Shown here one piece after another: positions 1 through 35,400 of a stretch of DNA of 64,000 nucleotides. The DNA lies in contig CM038923.1 of assembly GCA_021904315.1 (NCBI GenBank), positions 19,350,038 to 19,414,037 on the forward strand, read 5' to 3'. How positions within the stretch are numbered: the first letter of the stretch is position 1; each line of letters begins with the position of its first letter. Made by a program: the position numbers and the translations under genes. Under the pieces are notes generated by a model that did not search any database, had not been told where the DNA came from, and saw only the letters and a list, made by a program, of their open reading frames with translations. The stretch is from Sphagnum magellanicum. Lineage: Eukaryota; Streptophyta; Sphagnopsida; Sphagnales; Sphagnaceae.

Positions 1-2820
1 AAGTGCTATGACACATCAACCGGCATTACTTAGATTTGGCATTCTGAGGCCATGATCAACTGATTTCTCACTATGGTACTAGATCTGTTCCAGGCAGAGA
101 CTGCAGGTGGATCGAGCTGAAGCACATTATGCAGAAGGTTCTTTGAAGCTAGTACTTGTGATGCTATCTGGTTTCATATGAGAGGTAATCTCTCTACTCA
201 ACTACTCCCTCAGCATGGTAAGCTCAAGCTTTCTTATTCTCTTAAAAGTTGAACTGATGAATTGGATTTGATCTACCAATTATGCTTGGTGCTTGGGCTC
301 TTAACATGGATCTATGATGAGCACAGTTCCAGTTTGTAGCTCGTAAGTGCCCATTTCTGTGCTGCCCATAGCATTGAGCGAAGCAGCTTGCTTGGATGCT
401 GGCTGCATTGAAGTGATTTTGCACAATGCAAGCTGAACTTGTAATCAGGTAATGCAACAATTACAACCAAAGCAGGGGACAACAAACCAAAATGTGTTAT
501 GCTGGAAAGCTACAAATATAGCATGGCATATATATTCAGGTTCAAGTTTGATCTCAAGGTGGAGAACCCAGGAGTAACTCTGTATCATTGCTTCTCTCTC
601 CCCATGTCTGGGTCACCAGATTAGGGCTCTTGCCATACACATACCTGGAAAAATTCTTTGTGCTTTCGGGTTGAAGTTTTCTGGCCATGAAATAATGTTG
701 GTTGTATGTTTGTGTTAGCACAGTAACAGAAACGATGCTGTATATTGCACCTTCAATTGCCGGAAGTAGAGCAGGTGGTTTAAATGCAGGAGCTTGTGAT
801 GTAATGATGTCTTTACAAGAGATTGTGTGTCAATTGGCCATCCTGAAGATATGGATGCACTTGTTAAGAGGGCTTTGGATTTTGTGAAGCATGCATTGCA
901 CTTGACAATCCATGGTGCACAAACAGCCTTCAAATCAACCCACAGAACTGGTTGCCAATTAAGGAATTCGAACAAATGTAATGTCTGTCTGAAACTTGAT
1001 TTGTACAAGTTTAATTGAAGGGATTTAAACTGGAAAAAAATTGTTTTGTGATCTAAGTTTTGGGTCAGGCTACAATGGAGATTGTCTGAAAGTTAATGGA
1101 TACCTCGAAGAAAATTGAAGCAGGGTAGGCTTGACGACTCTTTTCACTTCTGATGTGAATGCCAATGCTTGAATTGTGAGATGTTTTGTTGACTTCCATC
1201 CTATTCATTTTGTATGAGAAGCAGCTCCTATACAGTTGATGAGTCCATCCAGTGTAGCTTCAGATCCTTAACATCAACTTAATGTTAATTGGCTTCATTT
1301 GTAGTCTTACATGCTGGATTGGTGCAGGATCGAAGGACGGTATGTGCTGGGAAAATCAAGCATGGTAGTAATTTCATTCAGGTCCAGTGACACAGATTTT
1401 TCCAACATGAATCATGTTATGACATCAAAAGGACTTTGGAGTCTCAATGCATGGCACAATTGTTCAAGGCATGCTGGTGATAGATAGCTGATAAGAACTG
1501 CCTTACAGCATCTTATACCTATGTTGAATGCTTCACCATAATTGCGAGCATCTATTTGTAAAGCGTGCTATAGCTCTACAGCATACAGATGTTGATGATT
1601 GCCATGGTGGCCTTGCAAGCATTGTAACAGTAAACCTGTTTATCTCTTGACTCCTTCCCCATTTTCATCCTCTTTGCTCTGCTGCAACCTTTGAATGCAA
1701 GAGAAAAAGCTCCCTGTGATTACCAATCAGGTTCTTCTGCCTGCATTTTGAAGGACTGATGGTGCGTTGACTCAGAATGCCCTTGGTTGAGCTGTTGATT
1801 CCATGATAGATGGGGTGGACTACAATTTGTAACATGAAGCTTGTGTTGAGATTTGAACCATCAACCACTTGCAGGGTTGCCACAAAGCACTTGCTGATTG
1901 GTGTTTTGGGTTGTTGGATGATCAATTGACAGGTGCAAGAATCTGCAGGAAAGTTTTCAGGATGGTATGACACCTATCATCTATGGGGCAACAGCCAAGA
2001 TAGAGGCATTGTGTGCAACCAATTGATCGCCTATGTGGATGGTACCTGCTAGCAATTTTCAGCATGCATCCTAGGCAGGATTCATGACTGGTTTGAAGAG
2101 CATTTTTCTTCTTTCTGGTGCTATGAAATCTGTCACTTGATGCCCTTTCTGTGTGTATTGAAATGGTGTCCAATTATCATAAGGCTGTAAACAGGCCAGG
2201 GCACCATATCCCAATCTTGAAAGCTTGTTCTCTCTCGGTAGTAATCTATGTGTTTGATCTATGTACATGTGGTTTTGTTAATTTCTCTGGGGTAATCTAT
2301 GTGTTCCATCTCTGTCCATGTGCTTTTTTTTACATCCCTTAGGAAGTCCTGTGCACTTGGCACTGCTAGTCTTTGTGGGATTTCCCAGGTTCCTTGTCAC
2401 TCTCTTTACGAGCAGTTTGGGAACAGGATACCATTGGAAGAGGGCTTGTTCATGAATCTAAAGGGCATTTTTGATATAGTAAGAGTTGCTCCTCCTTTGA
2501 CATCTTTTCTCCTCATACATTCTCTGCAGTTATTCTGGAGATTATGCACTACTGCTTACGAAATAAGGTACATCTCAACCTGGAGATGGAAAGCCTCTAT
2601 GTTCAGCCATGCAGATCCTGTCAGAATCCAATTCTGTCAAGCTTTCAGAAAATTTCCAATTCAAGCACTGCGGCACTCACTCATGGAAGCTATTCATCAT
2701 GTCTTTGCTGCTTTGTTTGTGTTTCAGCCAACATGATGAAGGTGGCGGGGAATGTGCAAGTTTTGCAATGGTGATAACATCATGAGCACCACCAAGATAA
2801 AAGTGGATTTTTCTTCTACC
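1..2820. other. Upstream spacer without a recognisable gene
   Basis: Moderate GC compared with the AT-rich spacers further right, with only short open frames and none that I recognise. An imperfect tandem duplication at about 2249-2330 repeats a phrase beginning GTAATCTATGTGTT. An open segment at 2585-2720 reads MESLYVQPCRSCQNP at its start and ends at a good acceptor-like TTTGTGTTTCAG, so it could be an exon of an unmodelled transcript. No domain was found in it. Low-copy regulatory or 5' exon DNA for the GRAS gene downstream is possible but unproven. Confidence 0.4.
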
Positions 2821-2849
2821 AGCTGTCGGAACCTCCAATCAAGGAGCTT

Positions 2850-3086
2850 GTGTTTCTGAAACAGCAGCAACAGCTGAGACACTGGCAACAATGCATCTTG
2901 AAGAAGAAGGTGCAGCAAGAGGCAGCCAATCTTCAGGCACACAATGTCACACCAACCACTAGCAAGAAGATCATCAATTCCTTTCTTTCCTTCTTGCTTG
3001 CTTGCTTTTCTGTGCCTAAAAAAAAGCTGACTAGAACATGTAAAAGTGTTGTGGTTCACGCTTTTGAGGTCAAACAAGAGATTTGA
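2850..3086 (+). other. Glutamine-rich open segment, possible exon
   Basis: An open frame begins with LKQQQQLRHWQQC and runs through a Lys/Gln/Ala-rich stretch that would form an amphipathic helix. Plant transcription-factor N-termini often look like this, and a GRAS gene lies 3 kb downstream on the same strand. There is no start codon context, no conserved domain, and the frame dissolves into low-complexity TTCC/TTGC DNA at 2980-3010. It could be chance, an old exon, or leader sequence. Confidence 0.2.
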
Positions 3087-3739
3087 GCATCTTTTGGGCT
3101 TTGAGAATTCGCTCACTATTTGCACGCACGCACGCAAGCACGCCCCTGTCAACCCTAATCAGGAAACGGCAGGCCGTTGTTGCTGGCCTCCTGCTCCTTG
3201 AGCTCGTTGTTTTTCTCTCACAATCTCGCCGTGGGTGTAAAGCTGGAGCAGGAGGAGTGGGTGGGACGGAGAGACCGAGGGCTGTTGTGAGTATTTGTGA
3301 TAGAATTGCATCTGTTAGGAGATGCTGGATGCTTGGTGTCCAGAACTTAACTGGGTAGAGTACTTCCCGCTTTCTGTTTCTTCCTCATGTGCTAGCAGGC
3401 TGTTTGATTACTTCTCGGGTGGGAGGAGTAACAATCCATGTCAGGGAAAGTGAGCTATTCCCTTCAATCTTGTGATGGCTCTCTAACGTAGTAGTAGTAG
3501 TAATACTCTTCAGGAGCGAACGAAGTTGGGGGGGCAGTTGTGTTTGTTGTGGGTAGGAGGGTACTTGCTGCCAGTTCGTAGATATTTTGCAATACATCCA
3601 ATGTCTGTCTGCAGGTGTACCATTCACAGTTGTGTGGGTCTTTTCCTGCACTGTCCTTCTTGGGAAATTTTGATCTACCAATTGCCGGTCCCGGAATGCC
3701 ATCCTACTCGTCGTCTCTGGATTCGACGATTTGGGATGG

Positions 3740-5819: not shown

Positions 5820-7886
5820 ATGCTTGGCTCTTCTGATTCACATGGGTCAGCTCCTACTGAGCCAGTAGAACATGGCCGATCTGATCTCCCCAGCCAAGGA
5901 CAGACACCTGGTCGTATTGATCTCTCTCGTCCTGGTGGACTCATGCAATTGAGGAATTTGCTCTTTGAGTGTGCACAGGCTGTCTCATCAAATGACTGGG
6001 AAATAGCTCATGATCGCATCCGGGGCTTGTTAGGGAGTCAGTTATCTGCACAGGGAGATTCATTTGAGCGTGTTGCTTCTTACTTCACCGCAGCCCTTGC
6101 CACTCACATTTCAAAAGCTACAGGCACACAGGTGAGCTCACTATGTAGTAGGCCACCCTTAAAGGATCTTCTCGCAAACTGATTGCTTAGAAACACTGTC
6201 TGTCTGTCTACTGGTACAGACTTCCTGGAGGATTTGCATTTTGGGCTTTGCACATATGTGTCTGTCTATAATCCCTGTCTTGTGTAAGGAACTGATCTCG
6301 GGCTTCTTTTTCCAGCAAGTGCTCTAGGATTGAGGCAATGCATATTGACATTGTTCAATAGTAGTTTCCAGGTCTCACCAAACTCTTCAGTTCCTGATCT
6401 GGCTAGAGCTTGATCTCATATTTTGCATTGGGCCAGACTTCTAACCAAATTTGTTCTCAGGGCCATTGGGAATATTAGAATGGGCTCATCTATTGCAGAC
6501 ACTTTACAGCATGAGTTGCCTAGGGCTTTTTCAAATTGTCCTTCAAGGCTCTTTGAAAGATTCACAGAATCTAATGGTGAATAAGCAGTTTCGTCTGTGC
6601 CTTAGGGTGTCTAGGAATGTATTAGCTTACTGTCAAGGTTGCCTGGACATGGTCCCAGTCATGCTGTGTCTAACTAGCTTGTTGTAGAAACTAAATTAGA
6701 GGCAGGTAGTATGCAGACTATTTTGTGTTTGGCACAGAGATATTGCAGCTTCTTTAGAGGTCATGTTTCTGCACTTGTTCATGACCTCTGAGTTGCAAAC
6801 AGATTAGGCAGATTGTGAATGGCCATGGTGAACTTGGAGAATTCACCATACTGTTCAGAGTTGGAATCATATGCATGGTTGCTGAGAGGTTTATGATGGG
6901 TGGGTCTGCAGATCAGTTTACCATTGGCATTGGTCCAGCCACCTGGGAGTGATGAGTTGCTGACTGCGTACTTAGCATTGAACCAAGTAACACCATTTGT
7001 CCGATTTGCACACCTGACAGCCAACCAAGCATTGTTAGAGGCGCTTGATGGTGAGTGGTATCTGCATATTGTGGACTTGGACATAGTCCATGGACTGCAA
7101 TGGCCACCATTCATGCAAGCTCTTGTGGATGTGCGAGCAGATCAAGGGGCAGGCCTTCCACAGCTTTGCATCACCGGCATAGGGAAAGATAGACAAGTTC
7201 TCGAAATGACTGGCAGGCGTCTTGTCAACTTTGCTCAATCTATTGATCTTCCCTTTGAGTTCATTCCACTGATTCATCAGAATCTAGATTCTTTGAGGCC
7301 CACTATGCTGCGGTTGCGCACTGGGGAAGCTCTTGCAGTCAACTGCATGTTACAGCTCCACACACTGCTGGATGAAGAAGGGACAGGAGCACTGCAATTT
7401 TTCTTGGGCATGTTGCACTCTCTTAACCCACGGGTGGTAACCCTTGCTGAGAGGGAGGCCAACACCAACCAAGCATTCTTTCTAGATCGATTTGCTGAGG
7501 CACTTCATCACTACTCTATTCTTTTTGACTCCCTTGAGGCCACACTACCCCCAACAAGCTTAGAAAGGACGCGAGTAGAACAACTATGGTTCTGGAAGGA
7601 GATTTCCAACATTGTGGCTGCCACCCGTGAGGGTCAGGAGTCGTCCTCATCATTGGACTCGCGTGTTGTGAGGTACCAAAAGTTTGATCAATGGCGAATT
7701 TTCATGGAGACAGCGGGATTTCAATTACTTCCAACAAGCAAATTTGCACTTGCCCAAGCCAGACTTCTCCTCAGACTTCACTACCCATCAGAAGGCTATC
7801 GGTTGGTGGAGGACGATGCAGGTTGCTTATTGCTGGGCTGGCAAGATTACCCTCTTTTTGCAGTATCTTCTTGGAATGCAGTTTGA
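5820..7886 (+). CDS. LAS: GRAS transcription regulator, LATERAL SUPPRESSOR/SCL18-like
   Basis: Nuclear GRAS-family regulator. The angiosperm LAS clade promotes axillary meristem formation; its role here is inferred. Two exons, 5820-6131 and 6912-7886, join in phase 0 (CAG|GTGAGC ... CTGCAG|ATC) to give 428 residues, close to Arabidopsis LAS (about 445). Seen in order: leucine heptad I from about residue 40 (LRNLLFECAQAV); the VHIID-type core near 154-168 (LHIVDLDIVHGLQWP); leucine heptad II; a PFYRE-like block with LAEREANTNQAFFLDRF; and a C-terminal SAW block ending GWQDYPLFAVSSW. The core LHIVDLDIVHGLQWP is what places it near LAS rather than SCR, DELLA or HAM. Start: ATG 5820 gives the expected length. 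The frame stays open upstream to a TAG at 5658 with no other ATG, so a further 5' exon is possible. The 780-bp intron is a difference from intronless angiosperm LAS. GRAS assignment is near certain; the subfamily is likely. Confidence 0.88.
6132..6911 (+). other. Intron of the LAS-like gene
   Basis: Starts GTGAGC and ends TTTATGATGGGTGGGTCTGCAG. It interrupts the GRAS domain between leucine heptad I and the segment LTAYLALNQVTPFVRFAH. Several stops in every frame. No gene or repeat seen inside. Confidence 0.85.
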
Positions 7887-11039: not shown

Positions 11040-12260
11040 ATAATGCAGTACTAGAGTACTGCAAGCTTCATGATGTTGGCATTAGACTACAAGAAGATTA
11101 TTAACTATGCAGTCTCAGATCAATTACAAGATTAATGTCGCGTTAGACTACAAGCTGCTTATTAATGCAGAACTAGATTACAAGATTAATGACAACGCTA
11201 GACTACCCCATTATTAATGCAGAACTAGATTACAAGATTAATGACAACGCTAGACTACGCCATTATTAATACAGTACTAGATTACAAGATTAATGCAACA
11301 TTACACTACAAGATTATTAATGCACTAGAAGACTAATGTTGTAGTACTAGATTACAAGATTACTGCAGCATTAGACTAAAAGATTACTACAACATTAGAC
11401 TAAAAGATTATTAATGCAGTACTAGATTAGAAGATTATAACAGCATTAGACTACAAGATTAATAATGCAGTACTAGATTACAAGATTATAACAGCATTAG
11501 ACTAAGAGATTAATAATGCAGTACTAGACTACAAGATTATAACAGCATTAGACTACAAGATTAATAATGCAGTACTAGATTACAAGATTATAACAGCATT
11601 AGACTAAGAGATTAATAATGCAGTACTAGACTACAAGATTATAACAGCATTAGACTAAAAGATTAATAATGCAGTACTGGATTACAAGATGACTGAAGCA
11701 TTAGACTAAAAGATTATCAATGCAGTACTGGATTACAAGATGACTGAAGCATTAGACTAAAAGATTATCAATGCAGTACTAGATTACAAGACTACTGCAG
11801 CATTAGACTAGAACATCAATAATGCAGTACTAGATTACAAGGTTAATGTAGCATTAGACGACAAGATTAATGCACTACTCTAGAAGATTAGCGTACTATT
11901 ATATTATCACTAAAATTATCTTAATCTACAATTTACACCTACTAAGTTCAAGATTACAAGATTGCAGGTTCCAAGATGAATACAGTAGAAGATTGATTTA
12001 TACTATTTGTAATATTATTAATGTTAAATTCTAACAAATGTGCAACTTCTGGAGTCTAATGGGTCTACATTAAATTACAAGAGTGCAGATTACAAGAATA
12101 ATGCAGCAGCATTAGACTAGAAGATTTAATTTAATGTAGTATCAGACCATATTCTGATTAATGGAGTATTATTAGTATCCGAGATTAATTCTGCATTAAG
12201 CTAGAAGATTAGTGTAATTGCAGAGTAGAAGATTTATTTATGATCAGACTACATGATTAG
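11040..12260. repeat. Minisatellite, about 51-bp unit built of two half-units
   Basis: Tandem copies alternate between TACTAGATTACAAGATTA and GCATTAGACTACAAGATTA half-units, each about 25 bp. In the core (about 11400-11820) they form a regular 51-bp higher-order period. Copies become irregular toward both ends and fade out near 12260. All frames are stop-rich, so it is non-coding. Confidence 0.92.
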
Positions 12261-12330: not shown

Positions 12331-13974
12331 TTATACTTACTTACCTACTTATTAAAATGTGAACTTGAATTGTATGAATGAGTAGCTAGCTGCTGTGCAA
12401 TCTTTGTATTTTGAAAAACCATCAACACTTATAATTAACTGAATCACAGAACCCATTACAATCATACAAAAGGCTGTGCAATAATATTAGCATGCAATAA
12501 TAGTAGGCTGGGTTCAATCATAGAGAGTAGCACAAATGATTGCCGAATGATTAAAACGGTCCAGTATTTTCTTCTTTTTTGCACGGCACAAGTCAGATTC
12601 CAGAGTTCAGACAGGAAAAACAAAAAAAGGGCACTTCAGGCTTGAATTACTTCCTTATTTACTTACTTGCTGAATCCTGATCTCCCTCCTTCACTGCCTA
12701 AATGCAGACCCATCACAATTACCATCCGGCATTAAACACTAGTTATATACTAAGGAATGACTATTATTCTTTGCTGCAGCTTGTGGGTTTTGCTTGCTTA
12801 GACATGATGCATCTTCTGTATGACCAAAACACCCATCATAAACCTGCATATAATAAGACCAGCAACAAAATCTAAAACCCATTGTAATAATAAATACTTT
12901 CATATTATTAACCAACATGCACCTCCCCTGCCCCCTTTTCACTAAAGGCTATAAAAGAGTCAATTTAACTAAAGCCCTTCAACTTCTGGTTGTTAAAGCT
13001 GGTGCTGCAGGTTACTTGAGAGTGCCAGTGTTTTTGTTTCCTGGCGAAATTTCCCCCATTTTTGACAAAAGAAAATCCAGTGTCAAGGAAGGGTAACCTC
13101 CAAAGGATTTTTTTTGAAAAAAATGTGCAAAAGTTGCCATATCTTGTGGAAAAACATCGTAAAGTCGTCATATTTAGACAATATTTTCCTGGAGAGATTG
13201 CCAAAACATAGCAGGATTTTAAATATATATATACTTTACTCTGTCATTTGTACCCGGATTTGGCTCATTCCTCTTGTGGATGATCATGAGTCCACCTACA
13301 TCACAAAATTGACAAAAAAAACCACCCCTCCTCAATATTCAATTTGTGGAAGAAAATTTAAAATGGCATGCTATTTTGGCCATGCCAAGGTATTGAAGGC
13401 TAACTCAAATTCATGAGTAGAAAAAGATGATTCAATATCATTTTATTTTGGCCATGACAAGGTATTAGAGGCTGACTTAAACTCATGTATGTCCTATGTG
13501 GACCAAGGTGTTGAATATTCATTTTTCAATTCAAGTATGTGCCAAAAGAAGATTTTTTCAATGTGAGGCTATGTGGGCCATGCCAAGCTTTTGAAGATTG
13601 ATTCTAAAATTCGAATATGTGCAAAAAGAAGATTTTGGACCTTACTATGTTTGCCATGGGCCAAGATATTTGAAGCTCAACTTAAATTTCATGTTTAGAG
13701 AAAAAAAGAGGTTTGTGACACCTTGTTTGCAATGCCAAGGTAAATAAGTATATAAATGGAAGGTTAAGTTAAATTCTTAAATGTAGGGAAAGAAGATTTG
13801 TGGGGCTATGTTTGCCAGGACTACCAAGGTATTTGAAGACATAATTCATATATTCTGTAAGAGAAGAATTGATGTGAATGAACTGTGCTAAGTAAATGTC
13901 TCTTCAATGAAAGGGGGTGCTTATTAGAGATAGTTAAGTTTAACCAAGCTAGGTTGACACCGTAGCAATTCATA
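12331..13974. other. AT-rich spacer
   Basis: No gene recognised. From about 13380 to 13860 a loosely repeated phrase (GGCCATGCCAAGGTATTGAAGG and variants) recurs roughly every 80-120 bp, suggesting an old, heavily diverged tandem or transposon-derived repeat. Confidence 0.5.
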
Positions 13975-14636
13975 TATCAATATTAACTGTGAAAGTTTAA
14001 GCATCCTAAAGCACCCTAGGTTGAAAATAGTCTTTGGATAGATGACCTTCGTACTTTGAAGCCAATAATGTAGCAACGACGTGCATCCCTGCAAATGAAT
14101 GACTCAAAAGGATGGGAAATGAGAATAAACTGTTGATGGTGCCAATAGGGTTTGAGATAGGTGTGCTCGCATGATAATATGTACCTGAAAAAAGATATCA
14201 ATATTAACTGTGAAAATTTAAGCATCCTAAAGCACACTAGGTTGAAAATAGTCTTTGGATAAATGACCTTCGTACTTTGAAGCCAATAATGTTGTAAAGA
14301 CGTGCATCCTTGCTAATGAATGACTCAAAAGGATGGGAAATGAGAATAAACCGTTGATGGTGCCAATAGGGTTTGAGATAGGTGTGGTCGCATGATAATA
14401 TGTACCCAAAAAAAGATATCAATATTAACCGTGAAAATTTAAGCATCCTAAAGCACACTAGGTTGAACATAGTCTTTGGATAAATGACCTTTGTACTTTG
14501 AAGCCAATAGCATCGCAAAGACATGTATCTATCCATGCCAATGACTCAAAGGATGGGAAATTGGAATAAACCGTTGATGGCGCCAATAGGGTTTGAGATA
14601 GGTGTGTTCACATGATAATACGTACCTGATAAAAAA
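13975..14636. repeat. Three tandem copies of a 221-bp unit
   Basis: Copies start at about 13975, 14196 and 14417, each beginning TATCAATATTAAC and ending near GATAATATGTACC. Copies are highly similar and the spacing is constant at 221 bp. Because 221 is not a multiple of three, the open frames seen on the minus strand change frame in each copy, so they are not coding. Confidence 0.93.
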
Positions 14637-17600
14637 TGTCAAGGCTCATTTTCGAAAGGATAGAAGCACTGCTTAATTCCAATAGACTTTTGGATGGGGT
14701 CCTCCAAAGAATATAGTGCCGCAAAGGCATGTAACAGCCGCCTCTTTTCCCCTTCAAAATGCACCATAGAAAGGGTTGTTCTATAGCTTTTTATATGACC
14801 TTATCCACTTTAGAGGTGTATAACCTGTCCAAGGTCAATTGAAAAGTAAAAACTTTACACTTAATTATGAATGCAATTGCATCACAAACTTGGGTCTCAT
14901 TGGTTTCTAGAGAAAAATATATTTAAGGTTGGAAAGTTTCTTTTGTTCCATTGGGTGTCAAGTCAACTAATCTACCAGCCAGATTGGGTCCCCTATATAT
15001 TAGCTGCTTATCTACAATACTTTTAAATGTGATCCTCCTCCTGCCATCTTCAAACCACACAAGTTCCCCCTTACCTATGAGAGTTATCCTAAAGTTATGA
15101 AAAGCTCATCATGAGAACCCCTAGTTTGGCCAAAACTGGGGTAAAAAATGCAAACTCTTTCAAAAGTGATACAAAATGAAAAGAATGATATCTAGTGAGC
15201 TCTGTGCTCCTCTTATTCCTTACTTCTACCTTTAACCAATTGTGACCTATTCAAGGTTGCTTTTAGGTTGAATGTCTACCTACCCATATCCCTACATGGA
15301 TGATATCATACCCAATGCAACATATCACCATCCAACACCTGGGATCAGGATTAGGAATGAACTCCAATATGGAGAGTAGAGTGCATCCCAAAACTCAACT
15401 AATTATCCAAAAACATTGTCTATATATTCTCAAATGATGTGAGCCTCTTTAAATGCCTTGTCATTGCCAAGTGACATTTGAATATTCTTTTATTCCATCT
15501 AGTATTGCCATACTTCTAATCCTTAAAAAAAATTGTCTCATCAATATATAGGTTTTCTTTCGAGATAGCGATCTCGTAATGCTCTTTGGGTGGCTACAAA
15601 AGACATACCCATATGCCATCTTACCCAATGCACTTTGTATACCATATGAGGGCCTAGCCATGGTTGGGGTCACAATTTCCATACAAGAATTCCTAGATGC
15701 TATAGTGAAAATTTTAAGCCTAAATGTGTTTTTTGGTGGACTTTAGCTTCTAATAACATGTAAAGGACCCTTCTCTGTGCTCCAGTTTTATATATATAGA
15801 TATATATATATAATTGGCACAAATATAAAATATGATATTTCAAAATATCCCCTCCTCTTTTCATGAATATATGTTGGTGCATGTGTTGTCCCCACCTATT
15901 TCCATCTTGGATAAAATCCATGGCAATACAAACTCGTCCTTGAACAAGCTGTGAAAACATGAAATGAAATATTTTGCATCATAAGTTACACATTATTATA
16001 TGTATGCATAATAAGTTTCAAGTTCATAACTGAAATTTACAGTACCTTATGAATTTTAAAATAATATTTTGGGTGGATATTTTATTTTCCTAAAATATTT
16101 TCAAGGAATAATAAAGAATTGTAAACCAACTAAATAAATGGTTAAAATTTTTATTTAAAAATTCTTTGCAGATATATGCATAAAATTATGTATATGAAAA
16201 TGAAATTGCATTCCAAGTAATCAAAATATTGTTTGAAAGTTTTGAAAATGCAGAATTTGTGTTAAGATATCAAATTTTCCTACCCCTACCATGGCTAGAG
16301 CTATGATGATCTTATTAGCATTAGTTATTAAAAATGGTCAAAGGCCATTCACCAAAAAAACTAACTAATATATTTCTAGTTCAATTTTTTCCTTGCCCAT
16401 GAGTGTTCTACCCATTTCTTGTTGAAATAAAAAGGGGAGAAAAGGAATAAATATTAAACGCTCTAATGAAGGAGATCCCAAAATCGAATAATGCTTAAAT
16501 GTTTTTAGCCTATGGACAATTGTATGCTTCTCATTAGAGGTTTTTTATCTATAAAATTTCAAATAGAAATCCAATGATTTTTAGTTTTGAAAAGGTCATA
16601 GATGCCAATGGATGAAACAGCTAAGTAGGAAGAACTATCAAGAAGTATACTAGACCTTAGCTCTACCTACCAATTGCTAAGTCCTTCCATGCTAGGTCCT
16701 AGCAAGCGTAGATGCTCCAGCCCATGCTCTTCTCCAATGTTCTAATTTCACTAAATTGCATCATCATTGCTTGCTCTCACTAAACTCAAGAGCTGACACA
16801 AAATTTGTGATGCAACTTTAGGATTTTACTAGGAATTGCATGTTATAGTGAAAGGCACTTAGCATAGTTTGTGAGTGTGTAATTTGACTTAGATTCTATT
16901 ATACCATGCATCAAAGCTGGCATAGTATATTTCATAAAGTAACCACATTAGATTTTGAGTGAATCTTACTATTTTTGATTCTTGTACCCAATGCTGATTT
17001 CCTCGATTGAGTGTTTGTTAATGTTTATATGCAATAATCTATGGGATATTGTTCATTGATCTAGATGCCGAAAGCAAAGTCCTTCTTCTTTGTTGACCCT
17101 GTGTGCAAGTCTTGAAAAAAATGTGGACATTTGGGCACAAAACCTTGTTTGTTGTCTCTTGCTTAAATGAAATATTCAATCATTTAGAATAACATTTTAT
17201 TTTTCAATAAGTCAAGCATATACTAAATCCCTTGTGAATTCTAAATTTTTAATGTTTTGAACAAAAAATTAATATACTAATGGCACCCACATCTAAAATC
17301 TACTTATTTTGGAGAACTTAAATTTATTTCAATGACTTAAATTATGTACCCAACACCCAAGTCAAAATTTAAAAACCTTTTAGATTTTTTTGTGTGCCTT
17401 AATGAAACTAAAATAGAGATATTTATATCTTTGGTCAATTTACTAGAACCCCATTGTTAAATTATTTTTATAGCATATATGGATGTTGTTGATGAAGAAT
17501 TTAAGAGAAAAAATATGTTTACAATTCAATTTAGTAATGCATCAATTTTAATTTCATTTACATTTTAATTTAATAATGCATGACTTTTTATTTTGAAATC

Positions 17601-20600: not shown

Positions 20601-22050
20601 ACTACCAACACTTTATATCAATAATAGTTGGTATCATGAACCCTACCAGACTCCTAGACTCGTTCAACCTGAGGCAATACTAACCTTGTAAGCAGTCTGG
20701 TAGGGACGGCACTCCATTGCGATTTTGGGATGTAGTCATGTGGCAATCATATGTAGGATGATTTAGCCAAATTTGGCTACACACTAGATATGAAAGTAGA
20801 AAAAAATCAAAATCCTTTGCATGGGTTGAAATCATATTTTTCAGGTCAAAATTTTGGAATATTATTATTTTAAAAATTTAAATTAAATAATTAAATAATT
20901 TTTATAAAAAAAACTACTCCACAGGAAGCACCAGTGTGAGGATGGTTATTCCTTTTTAAGAGAAGAGAACCCCTGTTTCAATTCTGACAATTTGAAAATT
21001 TTTGAGGTTTTCGAGATGCATGTTTGAGATCGATTCTTTAAAAAATTTAAACCATTTGGTTTCAGCTTTGGCACACTTTTTTCAAATTCACGAACCTTAA
21101 ACCACGGTTTGAAAACTGAGTTTGGCTTTCATACACACACACTACACATTCCTCAAGGTTAGAGATTGTAATACGCAAAACATTTTACAACTAAATTAAA
21201 ATAAATAATTTATATATCTATGAAGTTCCGTTTACTTGTTGACTTTGTTTTTTTCCAAGAATCAACTTACCTACATTAAGAATCTGAACTTGTGTTTCAA
21301 AAAATTATTATATTTTCATTAGTAAATGATTGATTCCATGGTGCTCCAATTCTTGTGCCAGTTCCAACAAAAAGGATGTGAACTTGGGTCCAGGTGACAA
21401 AGAACCTGAACCTCAGGTTGAACCCACAAACCAAGGAACCTGCCAACACTAGTAAGAACGGAACCAGAGACTTGAGAGCTAATACAAGCCTTGTACCTGT
21501 TACTATACCAGTTTCAATACCAAATATATATTGCCTTGCCGGGGTGTTTTTCCTTTGTTATTTATTTATTTATTTGTAAATATATTCCTGTCTCGTATAA
21601 GCAGAAAATCAGTCCTCAACCCAAGACTATAACTGGGGTGGTATGAAAATTCAACAAGAGCACAATACCAGGACAAGAAATTTGAATATTTTTGAGATTT
21701 TCGAGATGCAAGTTTTTATGCTCAAAAGTGGATATGAGACCAACTCGGTAAACTACTCAGCTGAAAATTATTTTGTATTAATTCATCCTTCAAAACTGAT
21801 TTTGTCCTCTCTCAAAGAAAGAAGAGGTTCAAGAGATACCTAGTCAAGGACCAAGGGGGAACATCACACGACCATGTGTGTGTGTTTATTTTATTTCCAT
21901 TAAACTGCTTGCCATGGTGACTCCCTATCATATCTATTTCTTGTCTGCAGCTGTCCAATAAACACAGACATTGTGTCCCTCAAGAGAGTTCACAACATAA
22001 GTTAATATGCAACAATAATTGTTAGATCAACTGCACCTAAAGTTATACAC
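14637..22050. other. AT-rich spacer, probable decayed transposon DNA
   Basis: No supportable gene. On the minus strand, open pieces at 15461-15682 and 15700-15960 read partly protein-like (for example VTPTMARPSYGIQSALGK) but are frameshifted and match no family I can name. A TA-rich microsatellite lies at 15787-15812. The remainder (16-22 kb) is low-GC, with short runs of simple sequence and stop codons in all frames. Confidence 0.5.
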
Positions 22051-22160: not shown

Positions 22161-22973
22161 TGTTGCAAGATATGGGAACACATATCAAAATTTGGGAAGA
22201 TGGTGGGATGATATATCTACTGCACCTTTGCTTGGATCTAAGTTAACAATGAAGAACAATGTTCTTGGGCCTTGCAAATTCCAATGCACACAGCTCCAAC
22301 GCCATTGATCTACCTGCATATCACAAGTCAAACAAGTAGGCTATCTTGGAGTCGTAAACAAAACAAGTAGATGAGGGAAGCCCAGCAGCAACAATCACAA
22401 AAAATTTCATGGTCCAAACTTTGCTTATTGATGCTTGTTCTATAAGCTTTCACTCTGAATGAAGGTAACTTCATCTTTAAGAAAAAGCTAAGAAGCTAAT
22501 CAAATCTCAACCCGAGATTTACAATTTGCACCACTAAAAATAATATGAATTAACATGAGTGGAGCATAAATTCTATGCATTAGATAGAAGCAGTGATTTT
22601 TTCCAACACGAAAAAAAAGATTTCAACCTATACAAAAGATTTCTCATGGAAAAAATGGCCCAATTTCACCAGATTTTGAAGAGAAAAAATTCCAAATCGC
22701 CAGATTTTAATGGTAATTTCCAGTAGGTAGTCAAAAAATATAGGAATGTTGCTTTTCTTTTTTTTTCCTACTTTCATATCTTGTATCTAGCCAAATTTGG
22801 CTAAAATGTTTTTTGGATGATTGCCACTTTGGCTACATCACAAAATCCTTTTAAAAAAACCCTGTATAGGAGGAAAGGGAAACATCAAGTCTTTTTTAAC
22901 AGTTCTGCTATTTCCTTTTATTTCACTGCACTTGGCCCAAAAGGAAATTGAAAACTTTGTTCATTAATTGGAA

Positions 22974-24137
22974 CTAGTGGTAACCCGTGCCTGCAAGGCA
23001 CAGACGGTTTTAGATGATTTTAAAATTTTCTAAAAATTAATGGTTTAAAATATCCTTTCTTCTAATAGTAAAAAATAATCCAGTCTTATAATTTCAATTT
23101 GCAACGTCCTTTAGAGTCGGACGGGCTCGGCACCAGGCACACCGATTGTCCAATGGTCCAATGGTCACATTCTTTTTGAGTTGTCCAGTGGCCCAAAAGC
23201 CACAGTCGACCAATCACGCAAGGGCCCAAAAAAATTCCCTGTTCATACTGTTGGCCATTGTTTTGTAATGTGCGTGCGTGCGTGTGTATGTGGTGTTCTC
23301 CACTGGCTGAAAAGCTGTGTTCGACCAATCACAAACCATTATTTTCTGGGCCCAACAGAATTCATCCTATTCACATTCTACTGACATTGATTTTGTCCAC
23401 TGGCCCAAATTCTTCGTTCCACCAATCACGAACCGTTTTCGAGGGCCCAAGAATGCTGTACCTATTCACACACGTTCGCTGTAGAAACTTTGACGTAACT
23501 ACATGGGTGTGTGAAGTATGTCCCACTGGCCGGGAATCTACCGTCGACCAATCACAAACCATTTTCTAGGCCCAAAATTTGTTCCCTATTCACACTACTG
23601 ACGATTTGAGGTAACGTCGGCTTGTAGGCAGTTTGTCCAGCGGCCAAGAATCTAGAATCAACCAATCATGATCCATTTCCAGGGCCCATTTTCAATTGAT
23701 CCTATTCACATTATTACTGAAGCAGTTAGGTGAAGATTAAGGTTTTTGTACGAAACCCCGTCCATCTTTTACTTAACTTGTTTTTTTCCTTTTTCTCGCG
23801 ACGGAAAGAAAACCCAGGGCGCCTTCCGATTAGCTCCGTACTCATCGTACGCACCTATGGGAAGAAAGCATGGAAAGTAAACGGACTGAAGTGGAAAGAA
23901 ATGGGTAACAAAGTGTAAAGTAAAAGAGAAATCCGGAAGTAACGGAGCCAATGGGATTACGCCAGAGAGGTAATGAAAGCGAAATGACGTCAGAGAAAAA
24001 AACAGAAAGACAGAAAAACTGTGAAAAAGAAGAAGAAAGAGGGTACCAAAGAAAAAGGGGCCAGGAATCGAAAGAAGTAAGAGATAAGTAAAAGACAGAC
24101 AAACACACTGCCGGACTAAGTGAATTAATATATAGGA
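22974..24137 (-). mobile_element. Non-autonomous Helitron, 1,164 bp
   Basis: Read on the minus strand, the 5' end at 24137 is A|TCCTATATATTAATTCAC, with the TC start preceded by the target A. The 3' end at 22974 is CTAG|T, followed by the target T. A hairpin stem GTGCCT/AGGCAC with a 3-nt loop (22987-23001) lies nine bases inside the 3' end. These are the standard Helitron signatures: A-T target, no terminal inverted repeats, no target duplication. There is no Rep/helicase gene, so it would need a partner in trans. Its interior holds the CCAAT/GGGCCC array. Confidence 0.85.
23182..23720. repeat. Five-copy CCAAT + GGGCCC promoter-like module array
   Basis: Each unit has the same order: GTCCACTGGCCCAAA-like start, ACCAATCA, GGGCCCA, then CCTATTCACA and CTGAC. 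The ACCAATCA boxes start at 23209, 23324, 23421, 23547 and 23661. The spacers diverge while the boxes are kept. ACCAATCA is a CCAAT box (NF-Y target), and GGGCCCA contains the site II/TCP-type TGGGCC element of plant housekeeping promoters. Whether it drives transcription is unknown. Confidence 0.85.
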
Positions 24138-25163
24138 TTGTCTTAAGTATTGATCCCCTTGCATTCATGGAAAGAAAAGGATTGGGTTTGTGGGGAGAAG
24201 ACTTCTAAATAGGCAAACTTTCCTGACTCCCAATCATGTGCTGTACAAAAGTATTGCTTGCTTCTTTTTTTCTCGAGCTGCCCATTTTCCCTTGTCCAAG
24301 ATGCATCTGGAGATGATCAGACACATTTTGGTGCTGCCCATTATAGACTTGGGGTCCTGTTATGCACATTTTGGGCCTGTAATAGACACCCAGTATACAT
24401 ACCAGACCCAAAAATGTGCATAAAATACTGACACAAACTCTTTAATGGGCAGCATCAAAATGTGTCATCACCCATCTTTTTTGAGAAAAACAAGGGTCAG
24501 GCCAAGAGCAGATAAGGAAAATAAGAAGCCCTCCAATAAGGACCCTTTTGCTTATTTATAGTGTTCCTGTTTTGGGGTTCAATTACTTTTCCCATTAAAA
24601 TCGTGATAAGGTGATGGTTTGATGTATTTTTGGTGATCCAATGACAAGGTAATGTAAATCCAATGGGTGCAAGAGAGCACCACTTCTTCAGTCCACATTT
24701 AAGTAGAAGGACCCTACCTACCTACCTACCTATATGGGCCCATTTACCTACCTACATATTATCCCCTGAACCTACTAAATCTATTGATGTGAAAAGACTG
24801 AATGTCATCATTGCCATGTGGCTATTTGCAAAAGCTTTAGATGTCCTCCATTTAAGCGATCTTTTAACTTTTCAATGATAATATAAGGTGGACTTCAAAT
24901 GTAGGTAGGCCTATCACACAAAGTTATATTGCAATACTTGCATTTGGGGATATAGTACAAAATTATCATCAATCAATTAAGTCAAGGCGTAAACAAAGGG
25001 AGAATAGTGAAATGCAATATCTTCATGTTGGTAGAAACTCTAATTGTAAATATTAACACATTGTTTTAAGTGATTGTTATATCTTCACGTAATACTAACT
25101 TACATCGACAATGGGAGAATGTGTAAGATAGTGTGACACTTTCATTGTTAAATCATTTTTTTT
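24138..25163. other. Spacer with CCTA simple repeat
   Basis: No gene. A short (CCTA)n tract at about 24713-24762 is the same simple sequence, in the opposite orientation, as the TAGG arrays at 55.7 and 57.3 kb. Confidence 0.6.
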
Positions 25164-32423: not shown

Positions 32424-35400
32424 CTAGCTGGCCCGAAGAGTTTTCTTGTACTCCGCAAATGATCCAAGAAAGGGAGTTGCTTTTCCACCAGAAACAACCC
32501 AAAGTTCATCCACACTTCCTGATATGAGATGCTCATCATGGCTCACCTGCAAAAAATGATAATGGCTTGTATTAAAGACAGTTCCTAGGTCAAAATGTCA
32601 CATTATAACTGCAACCTTTCAATCAGGTATACTCCATGTAGAGACAATTAAGTAGACTTACAAAAGGAAGTTAGGTGTGAATTTTGGAGACAACAAAGAA
32701 TTGAGATTTGAAATTAAAGACAAGTCGATTGTGTGGGATGATGATCCCAGAATGAGATTGTATGTTTTGAAATCTTGTCTGCACAAAGTTCCTCTAAAGT
32801 TTCAATATACATTCATGTAGAACTGTCAATATCCATCTTGGATAGGAAGTGAAGGGAAAGGAGAGAGTTGAGAAATACCATTAGCACACCTCCTTGAAAG
32901 AGGGCTAGTCCTTGAATAAGTGCCTCTACTGCATCCAGATCCTGCAAATTTTAATCATCTTTTAGAACAGCTGCTCTTCCAATATAGTTCAACACATTAA
33001 GAGTGAAGTAGCAGTGCAGGTTAGCTGGGGTGGTGAACCAGATCCCATCAGAAGTCCATTCCTAATCACCCTAAGCTGAAAAAGGTTGGGTGACCTCACA
33101 AGATAGCAACACCACAACTAGGCATAGAGCCAACCACCCAAAGGGGCCTCTACCCTCAGTGTTGCCAAGCAAAGGGTTCTCAGCAACCCTTGATCTGGGG
33201 AGCTTAGGATTTAAACATTTCTTCTTTACCATGGCTTTCAAAATCATTATGGTGGTAACAATTATAAGCCAAGAATACTTTGTCTGAATTTGGCCAAGAT
33301 ACTCTAGCATGAGAAAAGAGGAACATTTGAGGTATGCATACTGAGATAAGGATGATGACCATAACACTGCTCTATGCATACTACTAAGTCACAGATTATT
33401 GGCATAACTGGAAGGGAGAAAGGATTACAAGATGATTGGATGGTTCATCAAGAAGTAAAATGTGAGGTTTGTTGAAGGTGATCTTTGCAAAGGCTACCCT
33501 GCTTTTTTGGCCACCTGCATGCCACCTCCAAGTTCCCAAATGTCAAGTGAAAAAGGTACACTGCAAGCCAAAAAACTCTTTCTCAAAGCTATAGAGCTGC
33601 ATGGCTCCAGAATATGATAGGAAGGGACAGACCCATTGACTACAACTTACACAGTTCATGACCACAAAAAACTGTACAACTGTGCAAAACTGTCAATGTG
33701 GTGACCCTTCAAGACACTGCCTGGATCTTTTGCATCATTATATCAAAACCAATGTTGGTAGACAAAATCTGAGTTAGAAATTGCACTCTCAGATATACTG
33801 AAACCAGGGAAAGAGAACATGGGGGAGGAAAAACCTGAGAGTGTGTACATAGATTGCAAGGCAAGGCTGCCAGTGAGTCCAAAGGACCCAAGATGAGCAC
33901 GAAGCCTCTGCTCCAACACACCCTACAATGCCACCCGCACATGCCTTAACTAGTTAGCACCTCAACATCCTTCTTCACAAGCTTTTGGATCAAGCTTAGC
34001 ACTGAATCTGATCCTTCCCTGGTCAAGAAAATCCCTTCACACTTGCACAATAGAGAAACCCCCCTTCTAATCCATGACTTTCATCAAGGACATGTGCTAT
34101 ATAGCAGATTGCCTGAGCTAGTTAGAGACCATGGATATCAGTAGCCGTTGTCAGGTAATCAGCCAAAGAGTACAACAGGTGGTTCACCAAGGCAATGAAA
34201 ACTGCTAGTTTTGTATTGCAAGAAAACCAGGAAAGAGGCATGCTTGCCCACGCACACACAAAGAAAAAGATTTGTCAAGGTGATATTGAAGGCACCATTT
34301 CTAAGATTGAGAGAGGGAAAGTGAGAGACCGGGAAACAATGAGACATATACAGAAGTGGTGTTGATGAAAGATCAAGTCCATCCACATGGTGCTGACTGA
34401 AAACTGCCATCCGGACCTACATCAATCAACCGAGATTCATCCCAATTAAGTGTTGCTTGCATGCATTTTAGACCAATATCTCTGAAATTGGGAGGATGTG
34501 CTCATATCAACCACAATTTTCTGATTGCAAGTAGAACAGTCACTTACCTTGGGTGACCGGAAAACTGTCCCTGAAGAAGGCTCCAATTCCCCTGATATCA
34601 ACTTCAGCAGAGTAGACTTCCCAATCCCATTTGGGCCAACCACTGTCAAATGCAACATAGTTTCACCTCTGTGTAAGGTCTTCAGGTCAAGAAAAGTCAG
34701 GACAAAATCTACACAATTTAAGCATCATCATGGAGAGGAATTAAGTCCAGTGCAGTTTGTTACCACTGCTCTCTACATAAGAAAACAATCCCTAAAGGAC
34801 ATAAACAACAATGATAACTAGCAGAAAACCTGGAAAAGAAAACTCTGGATGATATCATAAGGAGCTTCAGGAAAGTACTCACTTGCAAGACGGCTATCAA
34901 GGTCAATACCAAAATTAAGATCCTTGAAAAGCAAAGGGCCACCTGGATAGCCAAATGAGGCATCGCTGCAAGGATGAATAAAACCAACACAGATTAGCCA
35001 TAGATGGATTTGATCACATGCAACCAGATGTCTGTGTGAACCAATGACAGAGGGAGCATCATGTATATCCCACACAAAAGGTCAATACATGTGCTCCAGA
35101 TTCATAGTAGTCTGTTAATGAAAAAACATGCCTGAAACTGATGATGGGGCCACTTGGTTGGTCATCAGGTGTTGGGAAGTCAAACTTGTAGCTGTAGACA
35201 TCAATTGACAACAATTAGCTCGACCCACATTGTGCAAATCAAGAGAAACTTCAGTATACATGCCAGTAACATCAAGAAAAACCTGTGGACTACAAGTAGG
35301 TAATTGAAGGGAGATTCTGTTTTGTGAACTGGGTCCCTCAGAGATCAGACTAATCAACCTACCACACTACAGGTACAAGTGGACAAAAGACTACATATTT

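Follow-up and report, generated by a model that had tools for sequence, protein, structure and literature searches.

The segment at positions 22974–24137 of the window (the whole 64,000-nucleotide stretch of Sphagnum magellanicum DNA analyzed here) is confirmed as a real and ordinary non-coding plant Helitron, 1164 bp long and non-autonomous. Taken as a whole, the evidence is best explained by a non-coding Helitron subfamily that is mobilized in trans and carries an old five-unit tandem array, most likely as a passenger that has been shortened repeatedly; we put the probability of this reading at roughly 0.8.

The element has the ends of a plant Helitron

In minus-strand orientation, the element starts A|TCCTATATATTAATTCAC and ends GTGCCTTGCAGGCACGGGTTACCACTAG|T. 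Its 5' terminus is thus TC (24136–24137), preceded by A, and its 3' terminus is CTAG (22974–22977), followed by T. A hairpin, GTGCCT-TGC-AGGCAC, occupies 22987–23001 on the same strand, with the CTAG 9 nt downstream. These ends (A|TC, 3' hairpin, CTAG|T) had been recognized in an earlier note made from the sequence, and all of them are present, the one correction being that the sense strand of the Helitron is the minus strand. We scanned both strands of the window for CTRRT lying 6–13 nt after a stem that has 6 bp or more and is at least half G+C. This gave two sites, and only the one at the Helitron end had CTAGT; in 20 order-1 random sequences the average per strand was 1.05 cases with CTRRT and 0.05 with CTAGT. 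When folded as single-stranded DNA, the 3'-terminal 40 nt gave -7.6 kcal/mol, which was equalled or bettered by 2 of 200 shuffles, and at least five of the six stem pairs are conserved in 29 of 31 3' ends of copies.

Canonical plant Helitrons are described as having 5' TC and 3' CTRR termini (PMC7385966 and PMC13286980, both in excerpt) and a hairpin of 16–20 bp located 10–15 bp from the 3' end (PMC13286980, in excerpt). The element has such termini, and its hairpin, 15 nt long (17 nt as folded) and 13 nt from the element end, falls at the edge of the quoted size range, which we count as agreement. The family also has several copies with common termini of about 30 bp, and its insertions fall between A and T with no target-site duplication, as seen in the flanks and in the empty sites of copy L018 (see below). 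In its target the element departs from the Helentron/HINE group: the oligo-T given for that group (PMC7492417, in excerpt) is replaced here by A|T. Xuan1, a non-autonomous Helitron of an active wheat family, resembles the present element in its TC start, its CTAG end, a hairpin with a 6-nt stem near the 3' end, the lack of a transposase gene and insertion at AT; for Xuan1 real-time movement has been shown and a partner, Feng8, identified (PMC13286980, in excerpt), whereas the present element is known from sequence alone.

Copies share both ends, and one has empty sites

A search of the source genome (439 Mb in 31 contigs) gave at least 78 matches to the Helitron (40 of 313 first-look candidates scored), and relatives were found at dozens of places, many with fewer repeats. 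Among the matches scored, four other full-length copies are 87–93% identical to the window copy. The terminal 87 bp of the 3' end gave at least 40 matches at 97–100% (40 of 203 candidates scored). We extracted the sequence of 40 related loci, the window copy counted in. The CTAG side was recognized at 29 of them, the TC side at 37 and neither in L020; both were recognized at 27, which provides the further copies with both ends that the earlier note had asked for. The base outside the CTAG end was A in all 29 recognized ends and that outside the TC end was T in 35 of 37, all but L024, where two copies are joined, and L032.

Among the 27 copies with both ends, flanks were common to L018 and L019 only, so these two represent one insertion that was duplicated; the few further flank matches are dispersed repeats. 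The joined flanks of L018 (120 bp per side) gave nine uninterrupted matches of 239–240 bp at 93–97% (match table; 14/14 candidates scored). Judged from these full-length alignments, the nine are empty A|T sites, the homologous uninterrupted sites that the earlier note had also called for, and we regard them as the decisive test of Helitron identity. The joined flanks of the window copy yielded no empty site, matching only the copy's own flanks and repeats over 30–40 bp (24/24 candidates scored). A match to the flank of L023 was rejected as an empty site: it begins at the junction and has the look of a short repeat in its own right.

Some loci have unusual arrangements. In L024 (oriented positions 2400–3330) and L039 (oriented positions 2280–2420) two Helitron copies abut head to tail. 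At the junction the TC-side end is several bases short and joins the CTAG-side end of the next copy (ATAG in L039), as if one copy had inserted into the end of the other and the pair had then moved as one. The copy in L025, whose TC-side end is cut short, has GGTTTTCTAGAA on both sides (oriented at about 1489–1500 and 2228–2250), a 12-bp direct repeat that is unusual for a Helitron.

The array consists of five diverged units

The Helitron contains a tandem array of five units of 97–126 bp each, which on the plus strand occupy 23181–23295, 23296–23392, 23393–23518, 23519–23632 and 23633–23745 (units 1 to 5). The far limit of unit 5 was set by hand for the alignment. The earlier note had described five CCAAT + GGGCCC modules in fixed order. 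The number of units stands, but GGGCCC is exact in only four of the five, being replaced by AGGCCC in unit 4, and a fixed order is a property of any tandem repeat that adds no support of its own. Moreover, the recurring boxes are four rather than two. They are CCA[CG][TC]GGC and ACCAATCA, both found in all five units, GGGCCC, and CCTATTCACA, which is exact in four of them; CCAATCA is likewise present in every unit. The array holds five CCAATCA and four GGGCCC within 565 bp, and CCAAT followed by GGCCCA within 40 nt occurs six times on the element's plus strand, whereas 2000 order-1 random sequences generated from the element averaged 0.0155 occurrences and never had more than 2. A remnant of the first box, box A (TTGTCCAATGG / GGTCCAATGG), can be read on the plus strand at about 23146–23166, where TRF reports a row at 23148–23166. 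The TGACGTCA palindrome at 23985–23992, in the Helitron interior outside the array, is the only one in the window and is presumably a bZIP motif.

Identity between units is 64–76% in an 80-column core and 31–75% in the linker, where alignment is poor. The array was proposed to be recent, which does not hold, as the units differ by 24–36% in the core. By their letters the boxes resemble binding sites for NF-Y (CCAATCA, which we take to be the core of the NF-Y site) and for TCP proteins (GGGCCC, a site II-like box). The site II (TCP) motif is given as TGGGCY in the excerpted text of PMC8725346.

Unit number has probably fallen since the copies dispersed

Across copies, one given unit is on average 93–95% identical (unit 1 in 19 copies, unit 2 in 16, unit 3 in 6, unit 4 in 6 and unit 5 in 7, leaving out L019, L032, L033 and copies covering less than 90% of the unit). 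As this is well above the 64–76% found between units, the five units predate the spread of the sampled copies. We then counted modules, defined as CCAATCA followed by GGGCCC or GGCCCA within 45 nt, with the limits of L020, L025 and L038 set by hand. Among 30 copies, seven had no module, five had one, six had two, six had three, two had four and four had five; some of the low counts reflect changed boxes in a fuller array (L018 and L029). The 93,966 bp of copy flanks contained no module, and no copy among the 40 loci examined had more than five units.

The missing units are not the same in all copies. Units 1–3 are present in L025 and L027–L031, units 1 and 2 in L035, L036 and L040, while L024, L032 and L033 have the composition 1-2-5. 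Furthermore, L032 and L033 carry a hybrid unit with spacer letters of unit 5, the trace of an exchange between units 3 and 5. From these patterns we infer that five units are the older state and that the trend since dispersal has been repeated contraction, by loss and not gain, probably with exchange between units. In L025, L027–L031 and L055 unit 3 is directly followed by a segment of the element (from within positions 852–910) in inverted orientation; this is probably one rearrangement that was later copied.

The terminal modules recur without the array

The array is flanked by terminal modules that can be found without it. The 3' module spans 22974–23142 (element positions 1–169) and the 5' module 24085–24137 (element positions 1112–1164), both on the minus strand. 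L056, a relative with no array, matches positions 1–127 at 100%, 128–169 at 83% and 1112–1164 at 80%; it has extra sequence between 127 and 128, and different sequence between the terminal pieces. The first copy in L039 belongs to this type too. Since the terminal pieces recur in these two array-free relatives, the array and its neighboring interior are a feature of the present subfamily. A further 18 matches of 41–42 bp to positions 128–169 (23101–23142; 40 of 102 candidates scored) suggest that there are more array-free relatives like L056. The earlier note had pictured an array amplified inside the Helitron and then spreading. Its location between modules that recur in L056 and the first L039 copy agrees with the first half of that picture, but the five units had arisen by duplication before the sampled copies, which since then show a trend towards unit loss.

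Copies lacking the array also exist within the subfamily. Nearly the whole array is missing from L037, L038, the second copy in L039, L041, L042 and L045, which resume at element position 737, and five of these six retain the same small fragment of unit 3. They are found at different sites, showing that this lineage transposed without the array. Array-free copies are about 500 bp long. Nine other loci (L046–L054) have in common only the TC-side part, about 200 bp of it with the window copy and 250–340 bp mutually, with other sequence beyond it and no matching 3' end in the stretches examined. Being alike in the TC-side part only, they form a related subfamily with different interiors.

Coding content, possible partners and surroundings

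No Pfam match was found in two reading frames of the Helitron, nor were there Rfam or tRNA matches. The Helitron_like_N domain (PF14214) has at least 150 matches over the cut-off in the genome (150 of 576 candidates scored), indicating that sources of helicase exist there. When 50 end positions (40 from the 87-bp 3'-end search and 10 from the search for relatives) were compared to the 150 helicase matches, and about 3.5 kb were inspected around each of 20 matches, no autonomous partner with these ends could be paired: a distance below 40 kb was seen for only two end-helicase pairs (12.5 and 34.6 kb), and in each of them the helicase match fell outside the element's side.

Pfam searches of ten window frames identified a plus-strand GRAS-domain gene, whose last frame ends near 7883, and an ABC-transporter gene with minus-strand exons, of which the nearest one found is at 34449–34724. 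Both genes are oriented towards the Helitron, at distances of about 15 and 10 kb. Several other repeats were seen in the window. An inverted repeat adjoining the Helitron (24320–24466), with 37-nt arms that are 86% complementary and separated by 73 nt, has the appearance of a small MITE-like element. Segments 20721–20806 and 22761–22847 match each other at 80% in inverted orientation, and part of this repeat matches 30–40 bp stretches at 22 other genome places and in the flank of L029, so it is probably a high-copy short repeat. Local tandem arrays were also detected at 11159–11871 (period 51 bp, 14 copies) and 13974–14642 (period 221 bp, 3 copies, 90% matches).

The boxes show clustering between units but no robust protection between copies

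If the boxes were important for the spread of the element, inherited variants should avoid them while private changes made after insertion should not. The raw counts agreed with this expectation: differences from the consensus were 0.020 in boxes and 0.039 in spacers (P = 0.006), and shared variants were seen at 7 of 170 box sites versus 41 of 377 spacer sites (P = 0.009), or 5/166 versus 27/337 without CpG sites (P = 0.03). Private variants were alike in boxes and spacers (P = 0.58), and when the box mask was shifted along, only 2.3% of the placements gave as few shared variants. For these counts L019 was left out as a segmental duplicate of L018, as were sites with fewer than five copies and, in the shared/private tests, columns within 8 of an alignment break; the box limits were chosen after seeing the units. 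A listing of the variants showed that many inherited spacer variants stem from the single unit-3/unit-5 exchange in L032 and L033, and that others fall in a GT/GC-rich simple-repeat stretch of unit 1. Without the exchange tract, shared variants numbered 6/170 in boxes and 29/377 in spacers (P = 0.088), without the GT/GC stretch as well 6/170 and 20/341 (P = 0.29), and with CpG sites also removed 4/166 and 15/311 (P = 0.23). Unit cores alone, with the exchange removed, gave 6/170 and 12/209 (P = 0.34). We therefore rejected protection of the boxes between copies, as the raw deficit lost significance once the exchange and the simple-repeat stretch were taken out. The deficit keeps the same direction in all counts, so there may be weak constraint on the boxes.

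Comparison between units used the unit alignment and simulations with a uniform rate and similar mean identity. In 842 simulations of the core, the observed lag-1 autocorrelation of identical columns was reached in 0.1%, the 10-column variance in 0.4%, the longest run in 3.4% and the number of columns in runs of at least 4 in 11%; in 252 simulations of the full unit the corresponding values were 0, 0.8%, 1.2% and 2.8%. Permutation of the core columns gave P = 0.003 for the autocorrelation and 0.08 for the longest run. Such clustering would be more in line with constraint on the boxes than with the array being purely a passenger. The suggestion that the boxes matter is thus borne out in part: identical columns between units cluster beyond the uniform-rate simulation, but between copies it finds no robust support (P = 0.088 to 0.34 after controls).

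Source and role of the array

The preferred reading can now be laid out. A short non-coding Helitron subfamily would be mobilized in trans by the rolling-circle helicase of an autonomous Helitron, inserting between A and T without target duplication, presumably by a rolling-circle mechanism. Its copies would carry five old and diverged tandem units, bordered by terminal modules also known from array-free relatives. The array would have formed before the sampled copies dispersed and would later have lost units time and again, through exchange or deletion between them. Most likely it is a passenger, and copies with few or no units went on transposing.

Alternatively, the array could be a captured host promoter or enhancer that multiplied within the Helitron and was spread by it as a functional NF-Y/TCP module recruiting nearby genes. 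The boxes match known plant motif cores (for site II, as given in PMC8725346) and are dense within the array, identical columns cluster between units, and the related L056 is without the array. There is also a precedent, as Arabidopsis RC/Helitrons have spread binding motifs for PHERES1 (PHE1), with binding measured by ChIP-seq (PMC6914339, in excerpt); the present Helitron likewise carries transcription-factor motifs across a genome, although its motifs are only predicted ones and differ in kind (CCAAT, GGGCCC). We nevertheless consider this origin unlikely. A search with 23515–23770 (units 4–5 and a little following sequence) gave 36 matches in 27 places (27/27 candidates scored), all of which are family copies in the 40-locus sample, six of them matching beyond the array only. 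The 22 long matches to 23100–23420 were likewise all in sampled family copies (40 of 102 candidates scored), and the weaker ones consisted of the 41–42-bp terminal-module matches plus three weak ones from unit to unit, again inside family copies. Since the array was found inside the Helitron family only, no donor promoter appears in the genome among the candidates scored for these two queries, and the earlier idea of captured promoter fragments finds no support; a donor may have diverged below the search thresholds or been lost from the genome. Many copies with fewer units, box constraint between copies that is not significant after controls, and the location of the window copy between two recognized genes that point towards it from 15 and 10 kb off also argue against this origin. 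Pattern scans of viral contigs with element strings gave no match in two cases and an AT-rich 17-mer in 9 contigs, and a scan of prokaryote genomes gave a 16-mer of the element in 5 contigs; we rejected the 17-mer and 16-mer as signs of relatives and take them as chance.

A second alternative, about as improbable as the first, is that the repeats aid transposition as protein-binding or replication-aiding units and were kept for that reason. The five-unit array lasted until its units had diverged while the boxes stayed, and a similar role was proposed by the authors of the rice Mothra study, in whose view tandem blocs improve transposition efficiency (PMC4683698, in excerpt). The array-free and short-array copies at many sites (no module in 7/30, one in 5/30) count against it, and the existence of an array-free lineage argues, in contrast to the Mothra proposal, against a need for repeats in transposition.

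Slightly less likely still is that the array is a mobile regulatory cassette, in which five CCAAT + GGGCCC modules are kept for NF-Y/TCP binding and were carried to about twenty loci, and unit number tunes output. If this were true, the five-, three-, two- and zero-unit copies would be a natural dosage series of one enhancer. Regulatory activity of the array as such is possible. Finally, the idea that this is no Helitron at all but chance ends flanking a local repeat, which nothing but the shortness of the end motifs would suggest, is refuted by the presence of both ends at 27/40 loci, the A/T target preference and the nine empty sites of L018, and has practically no chance of being right.

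Comparison to known families and significance

The closest published case that we found, judging from the excerpted paper, is DHH_Mothra of rice, with two direct-repeat blocs in which the repeat number differs widely from copy to copy (PMC4683698). Compared by description, both families are non-autonomous and have TC/CTAG ends, variable repeat number and length subtypes. DHH_Mothra differs in its host, in subtype consensus lengths of 1252–2741 bp, in a bloc of 20% GC and in a captured gene fragment (PMC4683698, in excerpt), whereas the family studied here has a single block of CCAAT/GGGCCC units of about 115 bp each and includes array-free copies. The Cg_HINE Helentrons of oyster similarly are non-autonomous rolling-circle elements that disperse short central tandem arrays, but they are animal elements of the Helentron type with satellite-like central repeats, an oligo-T target and subterminal inverted repeats (PMC7492417, in excerpt). 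In the open-licence literature we found no paper on this family when searching with short element strings, and none on the combination of NF-Y and site II.

Altogether, this is a cleanly delimited Helitron subfamily whose copies, at different places in one genome, carry a single kind of repeat unit in numbers from five down to none. If the boxes bind factors, the copies would provide a ready dosage series for the effect of transposon-borne motif arrays on neighboring genes. If they bind none, the family would be a caution that finding recognizable motif cores in a transposon says little about regulation.
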